Positions 2,537-34,382 of a DNA stretch of 50,918 nt are shown in pieces (the stretch's first letter is position 1; each line of letters opens with the position of its first letter). The position numbers were made by a program, and so were the translations under genes. The notes under the pieces are model-generated. The model made no database searches. It had not been told where the DNA came from and was given only the letters and a program-made list of their open reading frames with translations. This DNA comes from an uncultured Verrucomicrobiales bacterium. Its GTDB lineage: Bacteria; Verrucomicrobiota; Verrucomicrobiia; Limisphaerales; UBA1100. The stretch is taken from contig CAJWMQ010000003.1 of NCBI GenBank assembly GCA_913042895.1, positions 1 to 50,918 of the forward strand, given 5' to 3'.

Positions 2537-3934
2537 ATGAGCGAACGGCCCAACATTCTCTGGTACTGCACCGATCAGCAACGCTTCGATACCATTGGCG
2601 CGCTGGGTAACCCGCACGTACGCACGCCGGTGATAGATCAACTGGTGCGCGATGGCGTGGCATTTACGCATACCTACTGCCAAAGCCCGATTTGCACGCC
2701 AAGCCGGGCGAGCTTCATGTCCGGCCTGTACCCCAGCCGCGTGCACAATACGCGCAACGGGAACGCCACCTTTCCCAACTGGCCGCCAGTGATCAGTAAG
2801 CTGATGGCCGATGTCGGCTACGAGTGTGGGTTGATCGGGAAATTTCATCTGCAAAGCTCGGGCCGCCGCACGGAGCCGCGGATTGATGACGGGTTCAGCT
2901 TTTGGAAATTTAGCCACGCTCCGCGCGACGACTGGGAGGAAGGCCACGATTACGCCGAATGGGTTCGCGAACAGGGTGGCGATCTGAATGCCTTGCGCGA
3001 AAGCGACGACCGCGTGCCCACCGAACTGCATCAAACCACCTGGGCTTCCGAGCGGTCGATCGAGTTCATTCGCCAACCACACGCCGGCCCGTGGATGTTG
3101 AACGTGAACATTTACGACCCGCATCCGCCCTTCATTCCACCGCGTTCTTATGCCGAGCAGTTTGATCCCGCGGCCATGCCCGGGCCGCACTTTCTCGAAA
3201 GCGACATGGCGGCGCAGGCGAAGCTGGCCGATTGCGATTTTCAGGACGAGGTGCGCACGCCCGAGGAACACGATGCCCATGCGGTTCAGGCGCGGTACTA
3301 TGCGATGATCGCCCAGATCGACGACCAGTTTGCCCGCATTCTGCAAACTCTCGACGAAACCGGCCAGCGTGACAACACGGTGATTGTCTTTACCAGCGAC
3401 CACGGCGAAGCGCTGGGTGACCACGGGTTGATGTACAAAGGCTGTCGGTTTTACGAAGGGCTGGTGCGGATTCCTCTGATCATTTCCTGGCCGGGCCGGT
3501 TTGTGGCTGATCACCAAAGCGATGCGTTGGTGGAACTGCTCGACCTCTCGGCGACCCTGCTGGATATCGCGGGCGTTGAAATGCCGGATTATTTTCAGGG
3601 CGCGAGCCTGCGGTCGATCCTCGAAGGACGCGATTTGTCCGACGCTCATCGCAACTTCGTGCGCAGTGAATACTTCGACGCTCTGGACCCGCATTTCACC
3701 GGAGGCTCGGGCACCTACGCCACCATGCACCGCACACGCACGCACAAGCTGTGCGTGTACCACGGCAAAGGCGTGGGGGAATTGTTCGATCTGGAAAACG
3801 ATCCGTGGGAACACGAAAACCTCTGGGACGATCCCACGCACGCCGACCTCAAGCACCGTTTGCTGGCCGAAAGTTTTGACGCCCATGTGCTACTGACCAC
3901 CGACGTCGGCTCCGAGCGCATCGCCCCTATGTAG
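2537..3934 (+). CDS. Type I sulfatase, no signal peptide (predicted cytoplasmic)
   Basis: A 465-residue sulfatase that begins directly with MSERPNILWYCTDQQ, leaving no room for a signal peptide, so it should act in the cytoplasm, unlike the other sulfatases here. The formylglycine motif CTPSR is at about residues 53-57. The first metal site reads TDQQ (Asp then Gln), as in choline-sulfatase and phosphonate monoester hydrolase relatives. GKFHL supplies the Lys/His pair, and SDHGEALGDHG followed by the MYKG lysine supplies the C-terminal metal site. It starts 12 bases after tctA, implying co-transcription and a substrate imported by TctCA, perhaps a sulfated sugar acid (inference). The exact substrate cannot be read from sequence. 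Confidence 0.9.
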   Translation: MSERPNILWYCTDQQRFDTIGALGNPHVRTPVIDQLVRDGVAFTHTYCQSPICTPSRASFMSGLYPSRVHNTRNGNATFPNWPPVISKLMADVGYECGLIGKFHLQSSGRRTEPRIDDGFSFWKFSHAPRDDWEEGHDYAEWVREQGGDLNALRESDDRVPTELHQTTWASERSIEFIRQPHAGPWMLNVNIYDPHPPFIPPRSYAEQFDPAAMPGPHFLESDMAAQAKLADCDFQDEVRTPEEHDAHAVQARYYAMIAQIDDQFARILQTLDETGQRDNTVIVFTSDHGEALGDHGLMYKGCRFYEGLVRIPLIISWPGRFVADHQSDALVELLDLSATLLDIAGVEMPDYFQGASLRSILEGRDLSDAHRNFVRSEYFDALDPHFTGGSGTYATMHRTRTHKLCVYHGKGVGELFDLENDPWEHENLWDDPTHADLKHRLLAESFDAHVLLTTDVGSERIAPM

Positions 3935-4167
3935 CGGGCCAGAAAGGATTTTCCCTAGAGTGTGTAGCCAGTGATCGTGGGCGTAGGGTTTTGACCGTTT
4001 CAGCGGTGCTTCAAAAATGAGCATAAACCGGCTCTCCGCAACGTACTGCTCTCGACCATTCAAATTGCCAGATTCGGCATAAGTGTTGGGGCTTAACCGG
4101 TTCGCTCGTGGCACGATATGAAATGGTTGATTCGTTGCGCGTTTGCCCGCAGTCTTGGCCTGTTCCC

Positions 4168-5547
4168 ATGAATATTCGTCCTTGTCTTTGGTTGCTTTGG
4201 TTTTTTGGCATTTTTTCGGTTTCGGCAAGTCAGCCGAACATGGTGTTTATCATCGCGGACGACTGCACGTTTCGGGATATCGGGTGTTATGGTGGGCAGG
4301 CGAAGACGCCGCATATCGACCGGTTGGCCACCGAAGGGATGCGGTTCACCCGTTGCTTTCAGGCGGCACCGATGTGTTCGCCCACGCGGCATAATATTTA
4401 CACGGGCCTGTATCCGGTGAAGAGCGGCGCGTGGCCGAATCACACGCGGACCTATCCGCACGTGAAAAGTATTGTGCATCACCTGCAACCGCTGGGCTAT
4501 CGCGTGACGCAGACGGGCAAGACGCACATTAACCCGCGCACAGTGTTTCCATTTGAGAACATGGGCGGCAAGAACCCGGATATGAAATACATCGACCGGC
4601 TCTTTGCCGAGACGGTCAATGGCGGTAAAGATGGCAAACCGTTTTGTCTGTTCGCCTGTTCCAATGAACCGCACACGCCGTGGGACAAAGGCGATGCCTC
4701 GGCTTATCCGCCGGCTAAGGTGAAGCTGCCGCCGTACATCGTGGACACGCCGCGTGTGCGCGAGGATTTCTCAAAGTACCTTGCGGAGATCACCTATTTC
4801 GATTCACAGGTGGGCGAGATTCTAGCGTTGTTAGAGAAACATCAACTAGCGGATAACACGCTGGTGATGGTTGTGAGCGAACAGGGTAGTGCGTTTCCGT
4901 TTGCCAAATGGACCTGCTACGATCACGGATTGCAATCGGCGATGATCGTGCGCTGGCCCGGCAAGGTGAAGGCCGGCAGTGTGACTGACGCGATGGTGGA
5001 ATATGTGGACGTGACCCCGACTTTCGTGGACGTGGCCAGTGGGCAGCCGGTGGCACCGATGGATGGCCGGAGTTTTCTGCCGGTTTTGGAGGGTCGGACG
5101 CAGAAGCATAAGGAACAGGTTTTCGGTATCATGACCACGCGCGGGATTATCAACGGCACGGATGCGTATGCCATCCGGTCGGTGCGGGAGGAGCGCTACA
5201 AGCTGATCGTGAACCTGAATCACGAAAGTAAATTTACCAATGCTTGCACCAAGATGCCCTTGTTTCTCTCGATGGTGGAAAAGGCCAAGGCTGGCGATGC
5301 AACGGCTCGTCGGTTGGTGGACGCCTATCATCACCGTCCGGCGGTGGAGTTGTATGACCTGAAAACCGACCCTCTGGAGATGACCAACCTCGCTGGGCGT
5401 CCCGGTAGTGAAGCGCACATCAAGCGGCTACGCTCCAAGCTGGAGGCGTGGATGAAGGAGCAGGGTGACAAGGGTGTGGAGACCGAATTAAAAGCCCGAG
5501 AGCGCCAGGGTGGCGGTCGGAAAAAGAATAATCCTAAGAAGAAATAG
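4168..5547 (+). CDS. Secreted sulfatase with Glu-Gln in place of the C-terminal metal-site Asp-Asn/His
   Basis: A 459-residue sulfatase with signal peptide (MNIRPCLWLLWFFGIFSVSA). The frame is open from 4108, but the ATG at 4168 is preferred because it starts the signal peptide. The formylglycine motif CSPTR is at residues 70-74, the IIADD metal site at 28-32, and GKTH gives Lys118/His120. The segment that normally reads S-D-N/H-G reads SEQG (residues 237-240), followed by FAKWTCYDHG. The rest of the active site looks intact, so this is probably a specialised subfamily rather than a dead enzyme. It is followed after one base by the next sulfatase. The 233-bp gap before it shows no convincing promoter. 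Confidence 0.88.
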   Translation: MNIRPCLWLLWFFGIFSVSASQPNMVFIIADDCTFRDIGCYGGQAKTPHIDRLATEGMRFTRCFQAAPMCSPTRHNIYTGLYPVKSGAWPNHTRTYPHVKSIVHHLQPLGYRVTQTGKTHINPRTVFPFENMGGKNPDMKYIDRLFAETVNGGKDGKPFCLFACSNEPHTPWDKGDASAYPPAKVKLPPYIVDTPRVREDFSKYLAEITYFDSQVGEILALLEKHQLADNTLVMVVSEQGSAFPFAKWTCYDHGLQSAMIVRWPGKVKAGSVTDAMVEYVDVTPTFVDVASGQPVAPMDGRSFLPVLEGRTQKHKEQVFGIMTTRGIINGTDAYAIRSVREERYKLIVNLNHESKFTNACTKMPLFLSMVEKAKAGDATARRLVDAYHHRPAVELYDLKTDPLEMTNLAGRPGSEAHIKRLRSKLEAWMKEQGDKGVETELKARERQGGGRKKNNPKKK

Positions 5548-5548
5548 A

Positions 5549-7093
5549 ATGAAACGAATCGTCACAATCCTTGCCTGCTTGTTGGCGCTGCCGTTGGTGG
5601 CGGCGAAGCGGCCGAACATTTTGTTTATCTACACGGACGACCAGTCCACGCGCACGGTTGGCAGCTATGATGAGGCGTTTGATTTTGTGAAGACGCCGAA
5701 CATCGACGCGCTAGCCGCCGCGGGCGTGCGGTTTGAGAAGGCATACATCGGTTCGTGGTGTATGCCTTCGCGCGCGACGATGTTGACCGGTCACCACCAG
5801 CACGGCATTGAGTCCATGCGTATGGAGGGTAAGTATCCGGGTAGCGCATATGATGCAGACAAGTGCCCGTTTTGGCCGTCCGTCTTTCGCAAGCACGGCT
5901 ATGTGACCGCGCAGATCGGCAAGTGGCATACCGGTGTGGATGGCGGTTTCGGGCGCGATTGGGATTACCAGATCATATGGAACCGGCCCAAGTACGTGGA
6001 GAATTCGCCGAATTATTATTACGATCAGCTCACCGAGTTTAACGGCGGCAAACCCCAGATGGTGGAGGGATACACCACCGACAATTACACCGACTGGGCG
6101 ATTGAATTCATCAACGGCAAAGGGCGCGCGGACAAGCAGAAGCCTTGGTATCTCTGGCTCTGCTACGGCGCCGTGCACGGACCATTTACGCCGGCTGACC
6201 GTCACAAGGGCGATTACAAGAACGCCAAGCCGCCCATGCCCAAGGACGTGTATCCGCCGCGCCCGGGCAAGCCGAAGTACGTGCAGAAGATGGAGCATTG
6301 GGAGCCGAAAAACGGCGTGCCGGTAGAGCGCAAGGTGCGTGAGCTGGGGCCGGTAGGCATGAGAGATATTCCCGGTCGGCCGTTGCGTGACTGGATCCAG
6401 CAATACCACGAAGGCGTGCGCGCGATTGACGAGGGTGTGGGCCGAGTGCTGCAGGCGCTGAAGGATTCCGGCCAGGACGAGGACACGTTGATTGTTTTTA
6501 CCTCGGATCAAGGCTTCGCGTGGGGTCAGCATGGGTTCAAGTCCAAGGTGGGCCCTTACCATGCCTCGGTGGCCGCGCCCTTGATCATTCGCGCGCCGGT
6601 CGCCAAGGCAAAGGCGACGGCCGGTCGCGTGGTGTCGGAGCCAGTGAGCGGCGTGGATTTGCCGCCGACCTTTTTTGCGCAGGCCGGCTTGAAGCTGCCG
6701 TGGAACATGCACGGGGAAGATTTGAGCCCGCTGCTGGAGAGCCCCAAGGCCAAACGTCAGTCGCCGGCGATGCTGGTGCACACCGGCAAGTTGTACGGTT
6801 CAGCCACGGAGAAGATTCCGACTGTCGATGATCCGGCGCTGTATCATGGGCCCGGCATACCGTGGTACGTGATGCTCGCCGAGGGTCGCTATAAATATGT
6901 GCGCAACCTAATCGAGGGCGAGGTGGAGGAGCTGTACGATCTCAATAAGGATCCCGAGGAGCTGGACAATCTTGCGCTCAAACCGCGGCACGCCAAGCGA
7001 TTGGCTGGTTTACGCGCGAGGGCGACCGAGGAGCTGCGCCGCACGAAGGCACCGTTTGTTGAAACCATGCCTAAACCATCCACTTTAAAATAA
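5549..7093 (+). CDS. Secreted sulfatase
   Basis: A 514-residue sulfatase with an N-terminal signal peptide (MKRIVTILACLLALPLVAA). The longer frame from 5510 overlaps the previous gene. The ATG at 5549, one base after the preceding stop, gives a clean signal peptide and is preferred. Key residues: YTDDQ (metal), CMPSR at 71-75 (formylglycine), GKWHTG, and FTSDQGFAWGQHGFKSK, where the second metal-site residue is Gln and a Lys follows. An insertion around residues 215-260, rich in Pro and Lys, separates the two halves of the catalytic domain. It lies in the plus-strand sulfatase run and is presumably made from the same transcript. Substrate unknown. Confidence 0.9.
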   Translation: MKRIVTILACLLALPLVAAKRPNILFIYTDDQSTRTVGSYDEAFDFVKTPNIDALAAAGVRFEKAYIGSWCMPSRATMLTGHHQHGIESMRMEGKYPGSAYDADKCPFWPSVFRKHGYVTAQIGKWHTGVDGGFGRDWDYQIIWNRPKYVENSPNYYYDQLTEFNGGKPQMVEGYTTDNYTDWAIEFINGKGRADKQKPWYLWLCYGAVHGPFTPADRHKGDYKNAKPPMPKDVYPPRPGKPKYVQKMEHWEPKNGVPVERKVRELGPVGMRDIPGRPLRDWIQQYHEGVRAIDEGVGRVLQALKDSGQDEDTLIVFTSDQGFAWGQHGFKSKVGPYHASVAAPLIIRAPVAKAKATAGRVVSEPVSGVDLPPTFFAQAGLKLPWNMHGEDLSPLLESPKAKRQSPAMLVHTGKLYGSATEKIPTVDDPALYHGPGIPWYVMLAEGRYKYVRNLIEGEVEELYDLNKDPEELDNLALKPRHAKRLAGLRARATEELRRTKAPFVETMPKPSTLK

Positions 7094-7097
7094 CCCT

Positions 7098-9278
7098 ATG
7101 AAATTGATTCACGCACTGGCCCTCGCGTTGGGCTTCACGGCGGTCGCTAAGGCGGCGCCGCAACCGAATATCGTGTTCTTCTTTGCCGATGACCAAACCT
7201 CCAGCTCGCTGGGGTGCTATGGGCATCCACTGGCGCAGACCCCGTATCTGGATCGATTGGCCAAACAGGGTACGCGATTTTCCAACGCGCATGTCAGCCA
7301 GGCGATTTGTTGGGTGAGCCGCACGACGATTCTCAGTGGGTTGGTTGGACGATCCTTTGGTACAGCGGCCGAGCCGGACCGTGCCACGCCGGAGTCAGTG
7401 CGGGAACTGTATTCTGATCTCCTCCGTGCCAATGGCTATCGCACCGGCTTCTTCGGTAAATGGCACGCCAAGATGCCTCGCGGATTTCAGCCGGCCGATC
7501 ATTTTGATGTGTATCAACCGGTGGGCCGCAATCCGTTTTACAAACGCCAGCCGGACGGTTCGCTGCGGCATGAGACCGAGGTGATCGTCGATCACGGCAT
7601 AGAGTTCATCAAGAACCAGCCGAAGGGGAAGCCGTTTGCCATAAACATGTGGTTTAATGCCTGCCACGCGGAGGATAGTGATCGGCGGCCGGGCATCGGG
7701 CATTTTCCATGGCCGCGCGCGATGGATGGGATGTACGAAAGTGACGAAATCGCGCCGCCGCGCCTGAATGATCCGGAGATTTTCAACAGTCAGCCTGATT
7801 TCCTGAAGACCTCCATCACGCGCGAGCGTTTCTTCTGGCGCTGGAACACCGATGAAAAATATCGGACCAACATGCGCGCTTATCTGCGGATGGTCAGCGG
7901 CATTGACAACGCGATCGGCCGTTTTCTCAAGGCACTGGAGGAGGCTGGTCTGGCGGAGAATACCATCATTGTGTACTCGGCGGACAACGGATTCTTCATG
8001 GGGAACCGTGGCTTTGCCGGCAAATGGTCGCACTACGAGGATGCCCTGCGGGTGCCGCTGATTATTTGTGATCCGCGCGTGCCCGCCAAGCAACGCGGGC
8101 AAGTCACGGATGCCTCGGCGTTGAACTTGGATTTCCCCGCAACATTTCTGGATTGGGCGGGCGTGAAAATTCCAGAACGCTATCAGGGTCGCAGTCTCAA
8201 GCCCGTGATCGAAGGTGGCAAGCCCGCGGGTTGGCGTTCAGAGACGTTTCACGAACATCACGCTGTACGCGGTCGCATTCCTGCCTTTGAGGGGCTGCGT
8301 AATCAACGCTTTAAATATGTGCGTTATACCGATTTTGGAAACCATGAGTTTTTGCATGATCTTAAGAATGATCCTGATGAACTTAAAAATCTCGCCAAAG
8401 ACCCCAAACACAACGATGTGCTCAAGGCCATGCGCTTGCGTACCGATGCTCGCGTCAAAGAGCTTGGTGGGCCGTTGAATCCGTTGGGGAATTTTGGGAA
8501 ATCGACGGATCCTCATCCAACCGCCTCGGCAGCTGTCACCGTGCGACCTGGAGCGGATGGGTTCGTGAACCTGATTGGTGGGGGGCTGCGCGGTTGGGCT
8601 GGGGACGCGAAATACTGGTCTGTGAAGAAAGGAGTGCTCACCGGCATCACTGATGGCACACTCAAGGCCAACTCCTTCCTCACGTGGAAGGGCTCCACCA
8701 TCCGCAACTTTGACCTACGCGTGCAGGTGCGCGTGACCCCCGGCGGCAACAGCGGTATTCAATACCGCAGTCGCATGCGGCCAGATCTTGGCCTGTATGC
8801 GGCGTCTGGATATCAATGCGATGTCGTCACCAAGAACCCCAATTACAACGGCATGTTGTATGAGGAGAAAGGTCGGCGCATTCTGGCGCACACCGGCGAG
8901 AAAGTGACGGTCGATGAGCAAGGTCGTTCCTGGATTACCGGCAAGATGCCCGTGAAGGAATTTTCCGCCGGCGAATGGCATGAGTATCGCGTACTCGTGC
9001 GCGGCAACCATCACCAGCACTGGATCGATGGGCACCCGACTGCGGATCTGATTGATTTCGACGAGAAAGGCCGCTCGCTTGATGGGGTGTTAGCCGTACA
9101 GGTGCACACCGGACCGGCCATGACCATTGAGTACAAGGAATTCCGGATCAAACATCTGCCCGATGATTTGCCGCTGCTGCAGCTGAAGGATCATCCCATC
9201 CCGGCCGGCTCGCTCGGCGTGCGGCCGCAGGGGCGACTACCCAAGAACTGGGAGCCGCCGGTGTACGGCAAGAAATAG
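7098..9278 (+). CDS. Secreted sulfatase fused to a DUF1080 (3-keto-disaccharide hydrolase) domain; CWVSR active-site motif
   Basis: A 726-residue two-domain enzyme. After a signal peptide (about residues 1-20), residues 22 to about 470 form a sulfatase with FADDQ, GKWHAK and YSADNGFFMG plus the GKWSHYED lysine. The residues that should carry formylglycine read CWVSR (residues 71-75, bases 7308-7322), with Val where Pro (or Ala) is normal. After a short linker, residues about 490-686 match the DUF1080 fold: FVNLIGG.LRGW, then YWSVKKGVLTG, NFDLRVQVRV, GNSGIQYRSR and GEWHEYRVLVRG. Pfam names that family 3-keto-disaccharide hydrolase. The fusion suggests that desulfation and glycoside cleavage act on the same substrate. 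It starts 4 bases after the previous stop, with no Shine-Dalgarno. Confidence 0.9.
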   Translation: MKLIHALALALGFTAVAKAAPQPNIVFFFADDQTSSSLGCYGHPLAQTPYLDRLAKQGTRFSNAHVSQAICWVSRTTILSGLVGRSFGTAAEPDRATPESVRELYSDLLRANGYRTGFFGKWHAKMPRGFQPADHFDVYQPVGRNPFYKRQPDGSLRHETEVIVDHGIEFIKNQPKGKPFAINMWFNACHAEDSDRRPGIGHFPWPRAMDGMYESDEIAPPRLNDPEIFNSQPDFLKTSITRERFFWRWNTDEKYRTNMRAYLRMVSGIDNAIGRFLKALEEAGLAENTIIVYSADNGFFMGNRGFAGKWSHYEDALRVPLIICDPRVPAKQRGQVTDASALNLDFPATFLDWAGVKIPERYQGRSLKPVIEGGKPAGWRSETFHEHHAVRGRIPAFEGLRNQRFKYVRYTDFGNHEFLHDLKNDPDELKNLAKDPKHNDVLKAMRLRTDARVKELGGPLNPLGNFGKSTDPHPTASAAVTVRPGADGFVNLIGGGLRGWAGDAKYWSVKKGVLTGITDGTLKANSFLTWKGSTIRNFDLRVQVRVTPGGNSGIQYRSRMRPDLGLYAASGYQCDVVTKNPNYNGMLYEEKGRRILAHTGEKVTVDEQGRSWITGKMPVKEFSAGEWHEYRVLVRGNHHQHWIDGHPTADLIDFDEKGRSLDGVLAVQVHTGPAMTIEYKEFRIKHLPDDLPLLQLKDHPIPAGSLGVRPQGRLPKNWEPPVYGKK

Positions 9279-9286
9279 TACCGATC

Positions 9287-10699
9287 ATGAAACGCTCACT
9301 TTGCCTGTTCCTGTTAAGCGGTCTGCTGTCTTTGGCATCGGCCGAGACGCGCCCCAACATTGTGTTGGTAATGGCCGACGATCATGGCTACGGCGACACG
9401 GGCTTTACCGGCCATCCGTTTGTCCAGACGCCGCACCTCGATGCCATGGCCAAGACGGGCGTGGTGTTCAACCGGTTTTACGCCAGTGCGCCCGTGTGTT
9501 CGCCGACGCGCGCCAGCGTGATGACCGGTCGTCATCCGTTCCGCGTGAACGTGCCCAATCATGGGCATTACCTACGGCCGCACGAAACCACCGTGGCCGA
9601 GGCGCTCGGGAGCGCCGGGTATGTCACCGGTCATTTCGGAAAATGGCACATCGGCTCGGTGCAGAAAGAGAGCCCCACTAGCCCGGGAGGCGCGGGTTTC
9701 GATGAATGGTTGTCGGGCTTGAACTTTTTCGACAATGATCCTTACCTGAGTCGCAACGGCGAATACGGGCAGTTCAAAGGCTCCGGCTCGGTGATTGCCA
9801 TGGATGCCACCATTGAGTTTCTAGGAAAACACGCCAAGGGCGACGAGCCGATTTTTGCCGTAACCTGGTTTCCATCACCGCACGATCCGCAGGCGGAGCT
9901 GCCGCAGGGTCTGCCGAATGCCGCCACGCTTTACAACGATAAGGATACTAAGAAGCCCGGTTACTTTCGTGAGATCACGCTGCTGGATCAGCAGATTGGG
10001 AAACTTCGAAAGAGCCTTCGCCAGTTGGGCATCGCGGAGAACACGCTGTTGTTTTACTGCAGCGACAACGGCGGGCTCGTGGTGGAATCTTCCGGAGGGC
10101 GGGCGAAAAAGGGTAGTATCTACGAGGGTGGCCTGCGTGTGCCCGCGGTGATGGAATGGCCGGCCAAATACAAGGCGAAGACCGTCGACACGCCGGCATT
10201 CACTTCCGATCTGTACCCCACGCTTGTCGCCTTGGCTGGTGCCAAGGTCGCGCATCAGCCATTGCTCGACGGCATCGATTTGGCGCCGGTGATCGCCGGG
10301 AAACGCACCGATCGTCCGCCCATGGGCTTCTGGCATGGACACACCCAGGGGCAAGGCACCTGGAACGACCGCATCATCAAGGCCCTGTTTGAGGCTAAAA
10401 AAGCGGGCCAACCCAACCCGCATCCCACGCGCGTTCTGAAAAACGTGAATGAATTTCCCACTTTCGGCGCAGACGCCCAGCGCGGTCACGCCGCCTGGAA
10501 TGCTTGGCCGTGGAAGCTGCATCGGATTGAAAGAAACCAGAAGGTCACCTTCGAGTTGTATCACTTGATCAACGACCCGATGGAGTCGAACGATCTCAGT
10601 GCCACCGAACCGCAACGCACAGCCCAAATGCGCAAGGCGCTTGAGGCATGGCAGCGATCCGTCTTGTCCAGCTGGTCCGGGGCGGACTATCGCAAGTAG
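9287..10699 (+). CDS. Secreted arylsulfatase-type sulfatase
   Basis: A 470-residue sulfatase with signal peptide (MKRSLCLFLLSGLLSLASA). The canonical active site is complete: MADDHGYGDTG, CSPTR at residues 71-75, GKWHIG, and YCSDNGG with a following Lys in RAKKGSIYEGG. The GYGDTG and YEGGLRVP signatures place it with arylsulfatase A-like and N-acetylgalactosamine-sulfatase-like enzymes. It begins 8 bases after the sulfatase-DUF1080 gene and has no Shine-Dalgarno sequence. It ends a compact run of five sulfatase genes before a 164-bp gap. Substrate unknown. Confidence 0.91.
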   Translation: MKRSLCLFLLSGLLSLASAETRPNIVLVMADDHGYGDTGFTGHPFVQTPHLDAMAKTGVVFNRFYASAPVCSPTRASVMTGRHPFRVNVPNHGHYLRPHETTVAEALGSAGYVTGHFGKWHIGSVQKESPTSPGGAGFDEWLSGLNFFDNDPYLSRNGEYGQFKGSGSVIAMDATIEFLGKHAKGDEPIFAVTWFPSPHDPQAELPQGLPNAATLYNDKDTKKPGYFREITLLDQQIGKLRKSLRQLGIAENTLLFYCSDNGGLVVESSGGRAKKGSIYEGGLRVPAVMEWPAKYKAKTVDTPAFTSDLYPTLVALAGAKVAHQPLLDGIDLAPVIAGKRTDRPPMGFWHGHTQGQGTWNDRIIKALFEAKKAGQPNPHPTRVLKNVNEFPTFGADAQRGHAAWNAWPWKLHRIERNQKVTFELYHLINDPMESNDLSATEPQRTAQMRKALEAWQRSVLSSWSGADYRK

Positions 10700-10863
10700 A
10701 TGTCCATAAATCTTGAATCAGGGTTTGAGTTGGACGCCGGAGGTTGCTCAACGTTGTCGGAGTCGCCAGATTTTCACGTCATCCGCCATCACATTTCTCA
10801 GAACGGAAAGGCGTAGCAGACGAATTTCGAATAACAAATGAAACACCGAGTGATTAATAGAAA

Positions 10864-12450
10864 ATGAATCTGATACGCACTTTTTTTTGGTTGCTGTGTC
10901 TTGGCGGACCGGTGTTGGCAGAGCGCACGACTTCTCCCAATGTGGTTTTTATTCTGACGGATGATCAGAGCTGGGATTCCATTGGTTTTTTGGGAGGTAA
11001 GGTGCATACGCCACGGTTGGATCGCATGGCGAAGGAAGGTATGCAGCTCACCGATTTCAACGTGACTTCCACGGTATGCTCACCGTCACGTTACAGTTTT
11101 CTCACGGGCCGATATGCTGGGCGTTGCAAGGCCCCTCGTTTTATGACTGAACACCCGCCGGGCGATCAGACTCAGGTGGAGAATATTGGTGAACTTGAAT
11201 TAGAAGGCTGGAATCTGGCCAAGCTGTTACAAAAGCACGGCTATCAAACGGGGTTTGTGGGCAAGAGCCATGTGGTGAATCATCATTGGTTTCATGGTCG
11301 CTGGGAGGGTACAGGGCTGGAAAGTTATCCAGTTGATGCGGATCCCCGAGATCCCGTGGTGAATGCCAAAATGCGACGCAATCATCGCCGCTGGTGTGAA
11401 GCGATCAAACCCTATGGATTCGATTATGTCGATGGAGTCTATGCCGCCAACCTCAAGGAACTTCAAAATGCTACCCTTAACGTACACAACCTTGATTGGA
11501 CCGTTAGTAAGGCTCTGCAATTTTTGGAGGCGCAAAAATCTCAGGGTGCGGGCACTAAGCGGGCGCCATTTTTTCTCTACTTCTCCACTACACTCCACCA
11601 CGGGCCGGCACCATGGGCCAATCGCTTCTCACTGGAGTCGGATCCGCGTTTTACTGGAGAAGGGTTCGTGCCTGAAGGGTTCGATGTTCTACCATCACGC
11701 GCAGACGTTTTGCGGCGTAATAAAGACGCCGGTTTTGCGGACAATAAAGCGTTTGCATTATGGCTGGATGACGGCGTGGGGGCGTTGATTGATAAAGTGC
11801 GCGAACTCGGCATGGAACGAGATACCCTCATTCTCTTCACCTCCGACCATGGTTCGTGGCGGCACGGCAAAGCGACGCTGTACGATTTTGGATTGCGTGT
11901 GCCCATGGTCCTTCAATGGCCCGGCCGCATTAAGCCTGGCTCGCAATATAACGGGCTGTTGGCCAATATCGATTTGGCCCCCACGATCCTGGATTTATGC
12001 GGTATTCAACCGCCGAAAGATTATATTATGGATGGCGTTAGTTTTGCTCCGCAAATTTTTGGAGATCGGAGCCCTGTCCGGGAGGTTTTGTTTGGGGAGT
12101 TGGGGCATTCTCGGATGGTGAAAACGCAGGACTGGAAATACATCGCCGTGCGTTATCCAAAGAATTTGCAGGAAAGAATAGATCGCGGAATGACTTTCAA
12201 GGGATTCGATGGCGCCACCCTGAAGCGACCGTACCTCACGCGCAATGGCCATCTAGGTCATTATGCTTCCCGTAAAAATCCACATTACTTCGAGTCGGAT
12301 CAACTGTTCCACCTCAAGAGCGATGTCGAGGAGATACGGAATGTGTACGAGCGCCATCCCATGGTGGTACAGCAAATGAAGGCGCATTTGCTGAATGCCC
12401 TAAAGCAGTTTGAGAACCGCCCCTTTGGGGAATTCGTTCCTACCCCATAA
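10864..12450 (+). CDS. Secreted sulfatase, paralogue of the 39010 sulfatase
   Basis: A 528-residue sulfatase with signal peptide (about residues 1-19). Active-site elements: LTDDQ, CSPSR at residues 72-76, GKSHVV for the Lys/His pair, and FTSDHGSWRHGKATLYD. It resembles the sulfatase at 39010-40599 in length, in the block VTSTVCSPSRYSFLTGRYAG, and in its C-terminal RPFGEFVP ending. The two are therefore paralogues of one uncommon subfamily. The 164-bp gap upstream holds no convincing promoter, so it may still belong to the upstream transcript. The DNA around it is slightly more AT-rich than its neighbours. Confidence 0.9.
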   Translation: MNLIRTFFWLLCLGGPVLAERTTSPNVVFILTDDQSWDSIGFLGGKVHTPRLDRMAKEGMQLTDFNVTSTVCSPSRYSFLTGRYAGRCKAPRFMTEHPPGDQTQVENIGELELEGWNLAKLLQKHGYQTGFVGKSHVVNHHWFHGRWEGTGLESYPVDADPRDPVVNAKMRRNHRRWCEAIKPYGFDYVDGVYAANLKELQNATLNVHNLDWTVSKALQFLEAQKSQGAGTKRAPFFLYFSTTLHHGPAPWANRFSLESDPRFTGEGFVPEGFDVLPSRADVLRRNKDAGFADNKAFALWLDDGVGALIDKVRELGMERDTLILFTSDHGSWRHGKATLYDFGLRVPMVLQWPGRIKPGSQYNGLLANIDLAPTILDLCGIQPPKDYIMDGVSFAPQIFGDRSPVREVLFGELGHSRMVKTQDWKYIAVRYPKNLQERIDRGMTFKGFDGATLKRPYLTRNGHLGHYASRKNPHYFESDQLFHLKSDVEEIRNVYERHPMVVQQMKAHLLNALKQFENRPFGEFVPTP

Positions 12451-23320: not shown

Positions 23321-24811
23321 TTAGTTGAGTTCTAGCTTCAGGCTCTCAAGAATGGGCTTGGACTTATTGGCGGTGGAGTCGGTGATCTTCAGCTCGATCT
23401 GGAAGGCGAAGCCAGCGGGGAGCTTGGAGAGATCAAGCGCGGCGGGCGTGCGCTGGATTTGTTTGGAGAAGTTCTTGATGTAGTCGTAGGTCTCTTTGAC
23501 CTCGGTCCAGTCGGTCCACTGGTTAATCTTGCCGTCGTTGTCGATATCGACGCCGACACGGGCAGTAACGGTCTCGACCCACGGGCCGGGGCTGACGTAG
23601 TCGGTGCGCTGTTGGGTGGCAAGATAGAATTGTCCATTGGCGAAGGCGACGTCCGGATCGGGATGGCCATTACCAATTTTGTCACACCACTCGAACGGCT
23701 CATCGATGGAGGCTGAGGTGAACCAGCCGACGCTCATCTGGTGACCACCAGCGGGATCATAATCGCCGAACAAGTAATACTGGCCACCGATGCAGATGGC
23801 CGCCCAGTCGCCGTAGGCTTCCTGCTCGGGCTTGTGTATCTCGTATTTGGCTACGTTGGTCTTGAACCGCTTCGGATCCTCCTTGAGCCAGTGCGGATGG
23901 TTGTAGCTGGCGATTTTGCCGGTGGGCTTCGTGCGGTTGTCGACGGCGGGTTTTTTGAACTTAAAATTGTTCAGGCCGTTCGGGCTCACGGCGTGTCCGG
24001 CGAGAGGGGAATCCCACGATCGTTTACTGGCGTTGATCGGGCTCCAGTCTTCGATTATCACGTGCATGTTGCCTTTGAGATCGCGGATGAAACCAGCGTC
24101 TGAACCGTGTGACGGATCTTCCACGGCGATGCCCATGTTCTTGCCGGGCGCGCCGTCGAAGAGGTTGTCGTCCACATAAACGTGCGGGTCCTGATCATTC
24201 GGGAAATCGTAGTAGATGTACGCCTTACCATCGACCCACTCTGCGCTGGTGACCCAGCGGGAAAAGCCCTCGGTGACCGGCCCATGATGGACCCAGTTTT
24301 TCATGTCGCGGCTTTGCCAAGCGTGATATCCGCCTTTTCCGGGCTTTAGCCCGCCGGGTGCGTCGAATTGGTTGGGATAACGGGTCGTCAACAGTGGCAC
24401 GTCGAATCCCTCCAACTTGGCCTTCTTGGGTTCGAACACCGGTTGTTGTTTGCCGCGCCGACCACCATACCGGCCGAACATCCAATAGTTGTCCGGTCCC
24501 ACGGTGAGCAGTACCGGCGCATCGCTAAGGTTGGCTGGGCCAAGGTTTTCGATCGGGTTCCAGTTTTGCCACACGGCGGATTGAGTGAGGGTAAGCGCCT
24601 TGGCCTTTTGTTTGTGATCAAACTTTTGGAGGTGAGTGCGTATCTGTCCTGCCTGACCGGTGGGTGACACCGTGCCATCTTTGATGGCTACTCCTTTGGA
24701 ATAGGTCACGACCTTTTCCCATTCGGCTTGGGTGCGAATGGTCACTGATTCGCCAGCCCAAATGGATCCGGCCCAGAGTTGTAAAGAGAGAATGAGCGCG
24801 CAGTTTTTCAT
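23321..24811 (-). CDS. Secreted beta-propeller glycosidase-like protein (GH43/GH117-like)
   Basis: A 496-residue exported protein and the only glycosidase-like gene in the window. The signal peptide (MKNCALILSLQLWAGSIWAG) is nearly the same as that of the adjacent sulfatase. The body has propeller-glycosidase phrases: DAPVLLTVGPDNYWMFGR, YHAWQSRDMKNWVHHGPV, AEWVDGKAYIYYD, GDWAAICIGGQYYLFGDYD and GHPDPDVAFANGQFYLATQQ. These resemble five-bladed GH43/GH117 folds, whose catalytic acids sit in such strands. A calcium-loop-like DIDNDGKI lies near the C-terminal third. The family is not fixed from sequence alone; it may be an uncharacterised glycosidase acting after desulfation. It starts 69 bases after the upstream sulfatase stop. 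Confidence 0.7.
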   Translation of the reverse strand: MKNCALILSLQLWAGSIWAGESVTIRTQAEWEKVVTYSKGVAIKDGTVSPTGQAGQIRTHLQKFDHKQKAKALTLTQSAVWQNWNPIENLGPANLSDAPVLLTVGPDNYWMFGRYGGRRGKQQPVFEPKKAKLEGFDVPLLTTRYPNQFDAPGGLKPGKGGYHAWQSRDMKNWVHHGPVTEGFSRWVTSAEWVDGKAYIYYDFPNDQDPHVYVDDNLFDGAPGKNMGIAVEDPSHGSDAGFIRDLKGNMHVIIEDWSPINASKRSWDSPLAGHAVSPNGLNNFKFKKPAVDNRTKPTGKIASYNHPHWLKEDPKRFKTNVAKYEIHKPEQEAYGDWAAICIGGQYYLFGDYDPAGGHQMSVGWFTSASIDEPFEWCDKIGNGHPDPDVAFANGQFYLATQQRTDYVSPGPWVETVTARVGVDIDNDGKINQWTDWTEVKETYDYIKNFSKQIQRTPAALDLSKLPAGFAFQIELKITDSTANKSKPILESLKLELN

Positions 24812-28283: not shown

Positions 28284-29606
28284 CTAAAACTTCCGGTACT
28301 TGCCTTTGAGCAGCGGGTTGGCTTGGGCGAGGTTGGTCACGCGCATTTTCTTGGCGTCCCACTTCAGGCGTTTGCCGGGAAATTGGCAGGCAACCACACC
28401 GAGGCATAAGGACTCGGCCAGCGGTCCGGCGTAGTCGAATCCGGCGAGGGTCTTGTCTTTGCCCTCGATAGCGTCGAGGAATTGTGTGTAGTGGTTGACG
28501 TCATTGAATTCCTTCTTGTTAACGCCATCCAGAACGGAGTCGGGATAAAAGGTGGGGATGGGGTACCCATTACCATGGGGCAGCACCATCCTGCCTGCTT
28601 CGCCCACATAGAGCGCGCCCTGTCTGGGAAGTTTGCCGCCGTTGGGTAGTTGAAGGTCGGGGTTGCCGTTGTGGCGGGGAGCCCCTTCACCGTCCCACCA
28701 AGTGAAGGTGAAATTGTCGGTGGTATATTTGGTGGGGGCAAAACCGTAGTGCACCTTATTTGTCTCGGCATGGCCAAAGCCATTAGGCGCGCGGCATTCC
28801 GCCTCGACCCACAGTGGATCTATGAGATCCAGCGATTTAAAGGGAGTATCAAAGATATGAATTCCCATGTCACCCAACGTGCCGCAACCGAAATCAAGAA
28901 TTTTCCGCCACTGACCGGGGTGATAAACTTTCTCGGTGAAGTGTCGAACCGGCGCCGTGCCGAGCCAGAGATTCCAGTCGAGCGACTCAGGCACGACAGA
29001 TTTTTCGGCGAATGGCTTGCCATCATATCCCCAGTTCTTGAAGCTCCATACGTAGACCTTCTTGATTTTACCGATGATACCCGCCTTGATGTGGTGTCGA
29101 GTGAAGCGGTAAGCAGCGCGGGACTGGTTTTGGATACCCATCTGTGTGGTGAGTTTTTTCTCCGCGGCAAATTCAGCAAGCTCTCGTGCCTCACTAAGCT
29201 TGTGCGTTAAGGGCTTCTGCGTGAAGACGTGTTTGCCAAGTTTCATTGCGGCCATTGTGGCCGGATAATGGGTATGGTCCGGTGTAGAGATCGAAACCAC
29301 GTCGACCTTGTCTCCAAGGGTCGCCAGCATCTCTCGGTAGTCTTGGAAAAACTTGGCACTTTTGTGCTTTGAAAGCCACGAATCGATCATACCGCGTTCT
29401 CGGTCTACGTCGCAGAATCCAACTGCCTGCACACGCTCGTGTTTAACTAACTCGCCGGTATCTACTCTACCTTTGCCGCCGGTGCCAATGTGGGCGGTAC
29501 AAACCCGGCTGTTGGGCGAGTTGGCCCGCAACCCGGATGGCAGCACGAAAAAGCTGCTGACGGCGGCGGATGTTTTAACGAAATTTCTGCGGGATAATTT
29601 GTTCAT
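28284..29606 (-). CDS. Tat-exported Gfo/Idh/MocA family oxidoreductase
   Basis: A 440-residue NAD(P)-dependent sugar oxidoreductase with a Tat signal (NKLSRRNFVKTSAA, about residues 2-28), so it is exported folded with its cofactor. The ATG at 29606 is used because it begins this signal. The Rossmann part shows AHIGTGGKG and VGFCDVDRE. The family motif EKP appears as TQKPLTH, a variant common in exported PVC members. The C-terminal substrate domain includes DFGCGTLGDMGIHIFDTPF. It heads the ten-gene operon, with a good promoter at 29629-29657. Possible roles are oxidation of a sugar to a 3-keto or lactone form, or GH109-like NAD-dependent hydrolysis. Confidence 0.85.
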   Translation of the reverse strand: MNKLSRRNFVKTSAAVSSFFVLPSGLRANSPNSRVCTAHIGTGGKGRVDTGELVKHERVQAVGFCDVDRERGMIDSWLSKHKSAKFFQDYREMLATLGDKVDVVSISTPDHTHYPATMAAMKLGKHVFTQKPLTHKLSEARELAEFAAEKKLTTQMGIQNQSRAAYRFTRHHIKAGIIGKIKKVYVWSFKNWGYDGKPFAEKSVVPESLDWNLWLGTAPVRHFTEKVYHPGQWRKILDFGCGTLGDMGIHIFDTPFKSLDLIDPLWVEAECRAPNGFGHAETNKVHYGFAPTKYTTDNFTFTWWDGEGAPRHNGNPDLQLPNGGKLPRQGALYVGEAGRMVLPHGNGYPIPTFYPDSVLDGVNKKEFNDVNHYTQFLDAIEGKDKTLAGFDYAGPLAESLCLGVVACQFPGKRLKWDAKKMRVTNLAQANPLLKGKYRKF

Positions 29607-29628
29607 GGCGTGAGTCAATGGATGGCGG

Positions 29629-29657
29629 AGTATAGGGTGGTGGTTTGGACTTGTCGA
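29629..29657 (-). promoter_or_regulatory. Promoter of the ten-gene minus-strand operon
   Basis: On the minus strand: -35 TCGACA (29652-29657, 5 of 6 to TTGACA), 17-base spacer, -10 TATACT (29629-29634, 5 of 6 to TATAAT). The Gfo/Idh start lies 22 bases further. It is the best sigma-70-like match in the window and stands before the longest run of same-strand genes. Confidence 0.55.
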
Positions 29658-29736
29658 TGGGATTGGCATATTACCACGAAGACAATGTTACTTGATCGTA
29701 ACGACATGCCAGATGTTTTCTCTAAGTTATTCTAAA

Positions 29737-31294: not shown

Positions 31295-32620
31295 TTATTT
31301 TGATCGCAACCCTGCCGTGTTTACGGTCATCACTTTGAAGCCTCTTTTACTGAGAGTGACGGTGTCTTTCAGGGTGTATTCCATTTTTGCCAGCGGCACG
31401 GTCGGGGTGTCGCTGTATTGTAGGCCTTGAAAGAGCGGGCGGCCGAAGCGGTTGCTCGGCTGCTCGGGCACGGTGGCGATAGTGCGGCTGCCCTGAACAA
31501 TGATGAAATGAGAAATGCCGCTTTCCAAATCAGCTTCAGCGGTCCAAGTCAGCGTGCGGCCGGTCCATTTCACGTCCTTGGGTGCAGGCGGCGGGGTGGT
31601 ATCGATCACCTTGGTATCCGTCACGTACTGCATCCATTTTTGGGCAATGGCCTTGTTGGGAAGCCAGGTGCCCTTATGGTTGTCGCCATTAAACGCCGCA
31701 GCGGGTACAGCCGTAACATCGAGTAACGGAGCGAGCCAAGCGCCCTGTGTGGGCATGGGCTTGAGCGGTTGACCGGGCTGGGCGGGCAGGCGGGCGGTAA
31801 GGCAGGTGTCGAGCCACGGGATGGCGAGGTAGCGTTGGTTGCCGCATTCATGGGCGGAAAGCGGATCAATCGCCATGCCGAGCAGACCTCCGTGACTGCG
31901 GACGGTGTTGAAAAAAGTTTCATTCATGGGCCACACGCGGGCGAAGCGGCCGGTCTTGACGGTGACGCCTTCCTTGGTGCCGGGGTTGCACATCATCGGC
32001 ACGCCGAGCGCCGCCTTGGGCAGGGTGTGCGGCTTGATGGTAGGCCGATCGGGATTAGCCGCGAGGAAAGGCACGCCGGAGCGCAGCCAGGCGGCGGCCA
32101 CGCGCTTGGGGTGCAGCATTACCATGCCGCCGGCCCAATGTCCGCCGCCGCTGTGGCCCCAGAGCGCCCACGGTACGGTGGCCAGTTCGTCGTGTCCGCT
32201 AAGTTTGCCCAGCTCAACGAGCGCCTCCTGAAAAGCCTTGCTGGAGCCATTGCGCGGATCGCACCACATTTGGCAATCGGCCTTTTGCGGTTGCTCGTAT
32301 GAAGGGGCCAGCAGGGCGCAGTCGTGTTTTTTGGCGAGCGCTTGCCAATGCAGATCGAACGCGCCGGTCTGGCCGGACTTACACGAGCCTTCCCCGCAAC
32401 CATGTTGATGTACCACCACACCCCGTAGGGTTTTAACGTCATTGGGAATCCAAACCGTGTATTGCACTGGATAAATCAATTCGCCCGGTTTGGTGGAAGC
32501 CTCGAACCGCATGCGATAGTACGGCGGCTTCACATCCGGCGGATTATCGTACGGCGCCTTTTGGGCGGGGAGCGTGACCGTAAGGGCGAGCAGAATCAGG
32601 ATGGCGTGGCGCAGGTTCAT
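31295..32620 (-). CDS. Secreted alpha/beta-hydrolase-like protein with C-terminal Ig/Fn3-like domain
   Basis: A 441-residue exported protein. The ATG at 32620 opens the signal peptide ([20 protein letters not shown]); the longer frame from 32707 overlaps the divergent promoter. Hydrolase-fold landmarks: [12 protein letters not shown] (oxyanion region), [13 protein letters not shown] (nucleophile elbow G-H-S-G-G) and [10 protein letters not shown] as the likely His. From about residue 340, [22 protein letters not shown]... looks like a fibronectin/Ig-like domain. It is most like PVC secreted esterases of unknown substrate. It is divergent from the DUF1080 gene, and a promoter with perfect 17-bp spacing sits at 32633-32661. 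Confidence 0.75.
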
Positions 32621-32632
32621 GATGAGGGCACC

Positions 32633-32661
32633 AGTGTCAGGCGGGTGTGAGGTGGGGTCAA
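32633..32661 (-). promoter_or_regulatory. Promoter of the secreted hydrolase gene
   Basis: Minus strand: -35 TTGACC (32656-32661), 17-base spacer, -10 GACACT (32633-32638). The ATG at 32620 follows 12 bases later. The same GACACT hexamer occurs before the EEP gene at 38906. Confidence 0.45.
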
Positions 32662-32682
32662 TGGGGAAAACCGCCTGCGGGC

Positions 32683-32710
32683 TTGATTCACGGAAGGGAT
32701 CGGGCACACT
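32683..32710 (+). promoter_or_regulatory. Promoter of the DUF1080-ThuA pair, leaderless geometry
   Basis: TTGATT (32683-32688), 16-base spacer, CACACT (32705-32710), then only 6 bases to the ATG at 32717. It lies back to back with the hydrolase promoter, the two -35 boxes being 21 bases apart. The -10 box is weak (3 of 6), so the call rests on the shared geometry. Confidence 0.35.
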
Positions 32711-32716
32711 GCGCGC

Positions 32717-33316
32717 ATGTACTCCAAGCTTTTGGGTGTGTTGTTGTGGGCCGGGTTGGCCGGCGGGACTATGGCGGAGCCGATTTTAAAACCGCTGTTT
32801 AACGGCAAGGATCTTTCCGGCTGGAAGGTGCCCACGGGCAATGACGCGGCCGGCTGGTATAAGGCGGTTGATGGCGTCTTGAAAATTCAAAGCGGACCGA
32901 AGAAGAAGGGCTCAGTGCTGTGGACGGAAAAGGCGTACGGTAATTTTATGATGGAGCTGGAGTTCCGCTTTGGTGAAGGCGTGGTGGACAGTGGCGTGCA
33001 CGTGCGTAACAAAGACCAGATTCAGATCGGCATCAGCGGCTCACTAAAGCGGGACATGACCTGCTCGCCTTACATCCCCGGTAAGGGCTATCCGGTGGAG
33101 GCCAAAAATATCAAGAAGCTGCTGAAGGCAAAGGACTGGAACCACATGCGCATTCAGGCCATCGGCAAGGAATACACCGTGTGGTTGCAGGGCGAAAAGG
33201 TGATGACCTACCAGAGCGACTCGGCCATCCCGGAAGGCCCCATCGGCATTCAACTGCACGGCAACCGCAACATGGCGATCGACTTCCGCAAGCTAGGCAT
33301 TCTCCAACTCAAATAA
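32717..33316 (+). CDS. Secreted single-domain DUF1080 (3-keto-disaccharide hydrolase family) protein
   Basis: A 199-residue protein: signal peptide (about residues 1-20), then one DUF1080 domain with the family phrases [78 protein letters not shown] and [10 protein letters not shown]. The fold is concanavalin-like. Members are reported to act on 3-keto-glycosides made by Gfo/Idh oxidoreductases. It is followed after 13 bases by a ThuA-like gene, a partnership that fits keto-sugar metabolism. Its start lies only 6 bases after a -10-like hexamer, implying a leaderless message. Confidence 0.87.
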
Positions 33317-33329
33317 TCTGGTTTAAAAA

Positions 33330-34382
33330 ATGAAAACTATCCATATCGCACTCGCTCTCTTCTTGCAATTGGCCGCCTTCGCCGTGGCCGGTCCGCTGGT
33401 TTATGAGGGCACCGAAGGGCCCGGCAAGGGCAAACACATCGTCTTCATCGCCAGCGACCACGAATATCGCGGCGAGGAAACCTGCCCGGCCATCGCGCGC
33501 ATCCTGGCCAAGCGCTATGGCTTCAAGTGCACCGTGCTCTTTGGGCTCGATGAAAACGGCCACATCAAGGCGGGTTCCTCTGATGTCCCCGGCATCGAGT
33601 CGCTCAGGGATGCGGACATGATGTTTCTCTTCCTGCGTTTCTTGGCACCGAGCGATGCATGGATGAAGCAATTCACCGCATATCTCGATCGCGGTGGTCC
33701 CGTGCTTGGCTTGCGCACCACCACGCATGCCTTCAACGGCCTTAAGGGCAAGTACGCTTATTACAACTTCAATTCGCGCGACGAGAAGTATGACTGGGGT
33801 TTTGGGCGTCAGGTACTCGGTGAAACGTGGCGGCCGCGTGAAGGAGCAGGCCATTACGGGAAAAATCACAAGTTCAGCACACGCATGTTTGTGGTGCCGG
33901 AACATAAGAAGCATCCGGTGATGCGCGGTGTGAAAGATATGCACGCCCTGGCCGGTGCCTATAGCGCGGTACCGATTGAAGGCTCGGTGATCCTCGGTAA
34001 AAATCAGGTGCTCGATTCCATGAAGCCTGATGGTAAACCGTTGGCCGACAAGCCGCCCAGCCCGAGCATTTGGGTGCGCGAATACACATCGGCCAAAGGC
34101 AAGAAAGGCCGCGTGTTTTGTAGTACGCAGGGTGGTTCGGAAGATATCATCAGCGAAGGCGTGCGCCGCTGCATCATCAATGGCGTCTTTTGGTGCATGG
34201 GCATGGAAAAGGAAATACAGGCGACCATGAATGTTGACTTCGTTGGGGCTTATCAGCCAACTCCTTTTACCAATGGTGGCGAAGCGCAAAACGTTAAGCC
34301 CGCCGACCTTGCCGGTTGGGAAAGCCCCATTATGCCCAAGGGCGAGAAACATGCGCCGAAGCGGACCGTGAAACGCAACTAG
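33330..34382 (+). CDS. Secreted ThuA-like domain protein
   Basis: A 350-residue protein with signal peptide (MKTIHIALALFLQLAAFAVA) and a ThuA (trehalose utilisation) domain of glutamine-amidotransferase-like fold: KHIVFIASDHEYRGEET, DADMMFLFLRF, GGPVLGLRTTTHAF, and later HPVMRGV and GRVFCSTQGGSEDI. ThuA proteins of alphaproteobacteria take part in keto-disaccharide metabolism; exported PVC versions are mostly uncharacterised. It is cotranscribed with the DUF1080 gene 13 bases upstream. The start is preceded by an A-rich stretch (tttaaaaaATG) and no Shine-Dalgarno. The end lies 30 bases from a convergent small ORF. Confidence 0.83.
   Translation: MKTIHIALALFLQLAAFAVAGPLVYEGTEGPGKGKHIVFIASDHEYRGEETCPAIARILAKRYGFKCTVLFGLDENGHIKAGSSDVPGIESLRDADMMFLFLRFLAPSDAWMKQFTAYLDRGGPVLGLRTTTHAFNGLKGKYAYYNFNSRDEKYDWGFGRQVLGETWRPREGAGHYGKNHKFSTRMFVVPEHKKHPVMRGVKDMHALAGAYSAVPIEGSVILGKNQVLDSMKPDGKPLADKPPSPSIWVREYTSAKGKKGRVFCSTQGGSEDIISEGVRRCIINGVFWCMGMEKEIQATMNVDFVGAYQPTPFTNGGEAQNVKPADLAGWESPIMPKGEKHAPKRTVKRN

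Follow-up and report, generated by a model that had tools for sequence, protein, structure and literature searches.

A sulfatase fused to a DUF1080 domain in Verrucomicrobiota and Planctomycetota: a candidate two-step enzyme for 3-O-sulfated sugars

A single gene of an uncultured Verrucomicrobiales bacterium encodes a putatively secreted protein in which a sulfatase is followed, in the same reading frame, by a DUF1080 (3-keto-disaccharide hydrolase) domain. We propose, with a confidence that falls just short of even, that this fused protein is secreted and processes a 3-O-sulfated sugar residue in two steps, the DUF1080 module acting after separate oxidation of C3. Sulfatases, DUF1080 domains and the 3-keto route are each already known. 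The pairing of sulfatase and DUF1080 was not found in a partial literature search but may be on record in protein databases. What is new here is the placement of the sulfatase half in the clade of P36_S1_25, which gives the proposal a specific chemical logic.

The fused gene and its domains

The gene lies in the window, that is, the whole stretch of 50,918 nucleotides that was analyzed. Its features are the following.

7098..9278, forward strand: complete fused gene, 726 aa, with signal peptide, S1_25-like sulfatase, linker and DUF1080 (open reading frame, Pfam, orthologues)
7098..7157, forward strand: putative Sec signal peptide, residues 1-20 (inspection; not conserved in the family alignment)
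7161..8447, forward strand: FGly sulfatase module, residues 22-450 (PF00884, 3e-48; PF16347, 2e-26; Foldseek match to 6hr5; tree)
7308..7322, forward strand: FGly motif CWVSR, residues 71-75, with unusual Trp and Val (family alignment)
8448..8555, forward strand: variable linker, residues 451-486, about 35 aa (57% mean pairwise identity; low pLDDT)
8556..9167, forward strand: DUF1080 / 3keto-disac_hyd domain, residues 487-690 (PF06439; AF2; Foldseek matches to 4jqt, 8rr2 and 8tda)
9105..9107, forward strand: His670, equivalent of the His-to-Asn site in 9fbe, H275N of BT2157 (alignment; PMC13273386)
9168..9275, forward strand: conserved C-terminal extension, residues 691-726 (family alignment; present too in the standalone relatives L167-L169)

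The open reading frame starts with ATG and continues as a single 726-aa frame without internal stops. Its N-terminus, MKLIHALALALGFTAVAKA, resembles a Sec signal peptide on inspection. All three Pfam matches of the protein exceed their curated cut-offs: PF00884 (Sulfatase) at residues 23-356, covering profile positions 1-301 of 301 (E 3e-48), PF16347 (SGSH_C) at residues 302-448 (E 2e-26), and PF06439 (3keto-disac_hyd, DUF1080) at residues 489-685, covering profile positions 2-187 of 187 (E 2.8e-30). The DUF1080 domain is complete, and scores 106.2 bits against a cut-off of 26.8. In the structure model, pLDDT drops below 50 within the linker, at residues 470-481. The preliminary description of one frame with complete sulfatase and DUF1080 parts behind a signal peptide was therefore borne out by the open reading frame, by Pfam and, for the putative signal peptide, by inspection.

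Conservation and origin of the fusion

A check for the same architecture in other PVC genomes, suggested in the preliminary description, recovered 80 further loci in two phyla with the same full-length protein and nearly identical ends (kept from 253 stretches confirmed by tblastn). These full-length orthologues are about 66-100% identical, and the 80 further contigs that carry them come from Verrucomicrobiota and Planctomycetota; 87 open reading frames of the fetched loci align across more than 600 residues. A close genome is that of a Verrucomicrobiales MAG, UBA8010 (locus L051), at 99.6-100% identity. Because full-length orthologues recur in so many contigs, the joining of sulfatase and DUF1080 did not occur by chance. 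In the family alignment, mean pairwise identity was 76% for the sulfatase, 74% for DUF1080, 65% for the C-terminal tail and 57% for the linker, and both halves are intact and under equal constraint.

Phylogenetic trees, which were quick trees built without bootstrap, provide a view of the history of the fusion. When 83 members were placed in a tree, Planctomycetota and Verrucomicrobiota were strongly clustered, with 6 changes of phylum label, at least 4 of which were forced, and the fusion is on this basis old, with few moves from one phylum to the other. Fused proteins formed one fully supported group in the sulfatase tree, and the DUF1080 tree was consistent with it except for the tail of L166 (genome G269). 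Given this agreement, a single fusion event is the simplest reading. The exceptional gene (L166:547-2262, reverse strand) carries a tail lineage that nests inside the sulfatase-fused tails and now precedes an SMP-30/gluconolactonase domain.

Two candidates for other forms of the protein were rejected. The short, tail-less sulfatase of L050 (L050:1412-2857, reverse strand; genome G003), considered as an ancestral unfused form, is a chimera with the C-terminus of another sulfatase: its first ~370 residues belong to the fused family, pointing to recombination with a neighbouring gene or to an assembly chimera. A frame of 1424 aa in L075, considered as a further fusion, is an open reading frame that merely runs upstream in GC-rich DNA.

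The sulfatase half

The sulfatase half combines the PF00884 domain with the catalytic set by which S1 membership is recognized (nucleophile Cys, Arg, Ca ligands, Lys and His). Alignment gaps aside, D31, D32, C71, R75, K121, H123, H190, D296, N297 and K309 are invariant in the 83 members, and these residues correspond to the S1 catalytic set as described (PMC5066984). The canonical C-x-[PA]-x-R motif is absent from these members and CWVSR is found instead, with C, W, S and R in 82 of 83 (the remaining one is a gap), Val in 81 and Ile in one. Pro or Ala is usual but not strict at position +2, and the nearest unfused relatives have CAASR, while a more distant unfused clade has CGVSR. The clade of unfused relatives at L038-L046 is mostly CGVSR, Val likewise replacing Pro/Ala.

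It could be argued that CWVSR is left unconverted to formylglycine, and that the sulfatase half is non-functional as a sulfatase, either using the unmodified Cys or serving another esterase function. The motif departs from the updated consensus at two positions, since +2 residues other than Pro/Ala each account for less than 1% of S1 and Trp lies outside the +1 consensus (PMC5066984), and the CAASR of the nearest unfused relatives points the same way. We nevertheless consider this very improbable: the remaining catalytic residues are all invariant, Val at +2 recurs in the related unfused clade, and the genome holds an FGE-like gene (PF03781, E 1.8e-69).

The best solved relative of this half is 6hr5, with 357 bits compared to 254 for the next chain, 34.6% identity over 437 aa and a Foldseek TMt of 0.88. 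In a quick tree, one starred clade of 19 rows contained fused and unfused PVC sulfatases together with 6hr5 (100% SH-aLRT). Both tree and bit scores group the half with this characterized S1_25 enzyme, which is P36_S1_25, an exo-3-sulfo-L-rhamnose sulfatase; SWF4, the other S1_25 enzyme in the review table, is an exo-3-sulfo-L-fucose sulfatase (PMC9096561). Judging from this grouping, the sulfatase half belongs to a clade whose characterized members remove 3-O-sulfate, and it is from the clade that we infer the 3-O position of sulfate removal.

The DUF1080 half

The isolated tail produced a confident AF2 model (pLDDT 93.5). Its best Foldseek match was 4jqt (BT3469), followed by other DUF1080 structures that included 8rr2, 8tda and 9fbe. 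These last three represent BT2157 of Bacteroides thetaiotaomicron, a 3-keto-glycoside eliminase/hydratase whose active site we took from PDB sequences and from PMC13273386. Alignment of PDB chains showed that 9fbe is BT2157 (8rr2) with a His-to-Asn change in MQD[H]GDD, which we infer to be the H275N mutation because positions agree (chain index 250, offset 25). The H275N lyase is deficient in hydration and retains elimination (PMC13273386).

The tail has the PF06439 family and fold in common with BT2157, along with residues W500 and W507, the NSG motif at 551-553 (invariant in 28 of 28), W627 and H641 (each conserved in 83 of 83), Q668 and the catalytic H670, which aligns to the catalytic His of BT2157 (QxH motif, H275) and is present in all 83 members. 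Since the H275N enzyme still eliminates, the conserved His supports hydration most directly. BT2157 differs in being single-domain and free of any sulfatase fusion, in having E-x-Q where the tail has Q573-x-D575, and in lacking a counterpart of an extra block, Y588-x-E590-x2-R593; both the pair and the block are invariant in the fused family. The expectation that DUF1080 catalytic residues would align consequently held for His670, with no sign of active-site loss, but not for the ExQ pair, and it is this replacement by QxD that keeps us from classing the tail as a BT2157-type member. The tail is instead a different DUF1080 subtype, one also seen in the N-terminal DUF1080 domain of BT3469 (GYQxE/D and Y-x-E..R), its best match in both sequence and structure. 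BT3469 itself has two tandem DUF1080 domains and no sulfatase. The literature searched yielded no activity for BT3469 and no described activity for the subtype.

The QxD pair and the Y-x-E-x2-R block imply that the reaction of the tail could differ from that of BT2157. Both are subtype-specific and missing from BT2157, and together with THTE_1561, a DUF1080 protein from a planctomycete for which hydrolysis of xanthan and lichenan has been reported (PMC10881899, PMC5673643), they would fit a glycosidase-like or lyase reaction on a desulfated or still sulfated sugar, without 3-oxidation. Such a reaction seems unlikely to us, given that the tail retains the histidine associated with 3-keto chemistry, that inspection of the tail reveals no GH16-type ExDxE motif, and that one standalone tail relative (L190, genome G275) is directly followed, 47 bp downstream, by a Gfo/Idh gene.

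Standalone relatives also bear on whether the tail is an enzyme at all. Those at 56-62% identity stand as proteins of their own, putatively secreted, and most consist of one domain (L167-L169, with L170 being longer); they show that the DUF1080 domain can apparently work alone. Their existence weighs against the tail being a carbohydrate-binding module, in which the DUF1080 fold, akin to CBM66 and to laminin-G-like folds, would just anchor the sulfatase on its glycan. CBM66 structures do match the tail model (4b1m, TMt 0.75). Non-enzymatic uses are suggested by planctomycete Ser/Thr kinases, among whose exclusively periplasmic partner domains DUF1080 is the most common (PMC11032199), and the same genome has an 890-aa sulfatase (L195) whose terminal DUF1080-like domain is degenerate and lacks the catalytic His. 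However, the tail keeps its catalytic-type residues, with H670, H641, Q573, D575, E590 and R593 invariant in 83 of 83 members, a full set unexpected in binding modules, and its top structural match is the DUF1080 protein 4jqt and not CBM66. A purely binding role is in our judgment rather unlikely.

The L195 gene (L195:4872-7541, reverse strand, contig C139) was considered as an independent sulfatase-DUF1080 fusion and set aside as binding-type because its domain has neither NSG nor the QxH His; it may be a natural binding-only counterpart. Elsewhere in the same genome (contig C31, L196), a ThuA gene overlaps the standalone relative that is closest to the tail among those found there. Sulfatase genes occur within two genes of DUF1080 tail relatives in L197, L198 and L200, and an alpha-L-rhamnosidase gene (Bac_rhamnosid6H) directly adjoins a standalone tail relative in L202.

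Genomic surroundings

The fused gene is part of a sulfatase run, and the window holds further genes of potential relevance.

2537..12450, forward strand: six sulfatase genes in one co-directional run, the fused gene among them (open reading frames, Pfam)
28284..29669, reverse strand: Gfo/Idh oxidoreductase with twin-arginine (Tat) signal, BT_2158-like; candidate C3 dehydrogenase (profile matches)
32717..33316, forward strand: second, standalone DUF1080 gene, distant from the tail (profile match)
33330..34382, forward strand: ThuA-like gene immediately downstream of the second DUF1080 (PF06283, 5e-6, below cut-off)

Within the run, the fused gene begins 4 bp after the preceding sulfatase and ends 8 bp before the following one. 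The Gfo/Idh, second DUF1080 and ThuA genes named in the preliminary description were all located, the ThuA match being weak (27.4 bits against a curated cut-off of 33.4). The best NCBIfam match of the Gfo/Idh protein is BT_2158_fam, 'glycoside 3-dehydrogenase', at 260 bits, far under the 750-bit cut-off. Its gene lies about 19 kb from the fused gene, a distance that makes for weak evidence because the genome (a 2.96-Mb draft, 82% complete) has 34 Gfo/Idh and 31 DUF1080 matches.

Sulfatase matches number 19 within the 51-kb window and 127 genome-wide. The window also encodes an enolase-family relative of sugar-acid dehydratases, a lactonase-fold protein and TctA/TctC transport genes, and is, over positions 1-50918, a sulfatase island with genes of sugar-acid type. 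No classical glycosidase was seen among the window open reading frames scanned. Three long frames on the reverse strand (23321-24811, 31295-32707 and 33309-34352) had zero Pfam matches; the third lies over the ThuA frame of the opposite strand and is probably no gene.

No conserved neighbourhood emerged among the orthologues from clustering at 40% identity, from comparison with window genes or from a Pfam tally of 109 neighbours. Among 148 direct neighbours a single one is similar to the window Gfo/Idh, and the commonest neighbour families include no Gfo/Idh. Rhamnose as the substrate found no backing in the genome itself: RhaA and GH78 were undetected at 82% completeness, nothing independent therefore indicating this sugar, and there was one weak match to a fucosidase family.

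Proposed mechanism and known systems

In the mechanism we favor, the S1_25-like FGly sulfatase would act first on a sugar at the non-reducing end, probably a 6-deoxyhexose (rhamnose or fucose, for example), and take off a sulfate that most likely sits at 3-O. As a reaction type this step is well supported, its position being read from the clade. Both S1_25 enzymes listed in the review are exo-3-O-sulfatases, and desulfation would therefore free the very hydroxyl that is oxidized in the 3-keto route. A separate protein, an exported glycoside 3-dehydrogenase of Gfo/Idh type, would then oxidize the freed 3-OH to a ketone. Finally, the DUF1080 module would beta-eliminate the 3-keto sugar and/or hydrate the resulting 2-hydroxy-3-keto-glycal, making a classical glycosidase unnecessary. 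Both modules would presumably act on the same sugar residue.

The preliminary description suggested that sulfate removal and 3-keto cleavage may be performed by one polypeptide. In favor of that idea are the ancient and conserved architecture, the catalytic His in 83 of 83 members, the 3-O-sulfatase clade, the Gfo/Idh gene after one standalone relative, and the Tat-type, BT_2158-like nature of the window Gfo/Idh. However, no Gfo/Idh is linked to the orthologues, and one protein cannot carry out the whole route because C3 oxidation requires a separate enzyme. A more specific reading, which we advance tentatively, is that of a single conserved enzyme of Planctomycetota and Verrucomicrobiota performing 3-O-desulfation and, once C3 is oxidized, cleavage or hydration of the same residue, which would make it the oxidative equivalent of the sulfatase-rhamnosidase P36. 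In this reading the tail is an uncharacterized DUF1080 subtype that may be specific for 6-deoxy sugars, and CWVSR is an unrecognized formylglycine motif.

The fusion would join the unblocking of C3 to an enzyme whose substrate must be oxidized at C3, much as P36 of Formosa agariphila (PDB 6HR5), in which an S1_25-type sulfatase likewise has a sugar-releasing module as its fusion partner, couples its sulfatase with a GH78 rhamnosidase. The GH78 and S1_25 modules of P36 act consecutively on one residue (PMC8511951). In the fused protein DUF1080 takes the place of GH78, the FGly motif is CWVSR instead of CAASR, and the hosts are Verrucomicrobiota and Planctomycetota, whereas P36 belongs to an ulvan PUL of Bacteroidota. 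The lactose route of Caulobacter (LacABC and CCNA_01705), which is backed by fitness data (PMC9007349), likewise combines 3-oxidation in the periplasm with a subsequent DUF1080 enzyme, as proposed here. That route differs in its use of separate proteins, an unsulfated disaccharide and a LacABC-type dehydrogenase.

Significance

PVC genomes can carry more than 100 sulfatases and dozens of DUF1080 genes, as does this one. The fusion offers a concrete reason for their joint work, in that a 3-O-sulfate stands in the way of the oxidation on which the non-hydrolytic pathway depends. The fused gene, a single testable gene, is present in cultured strains, and the cultured genera with an orthologue include Rhodopirellula, Stieleria and Thalassoglobus. 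Overall, the architecture suggests a possible route for dismantling sulfated algal sugars without an ordinary glycosidase and, if this is true, the recently described 3-keto route for glycans would be linked to the breakdown of sulfated algal glycans.
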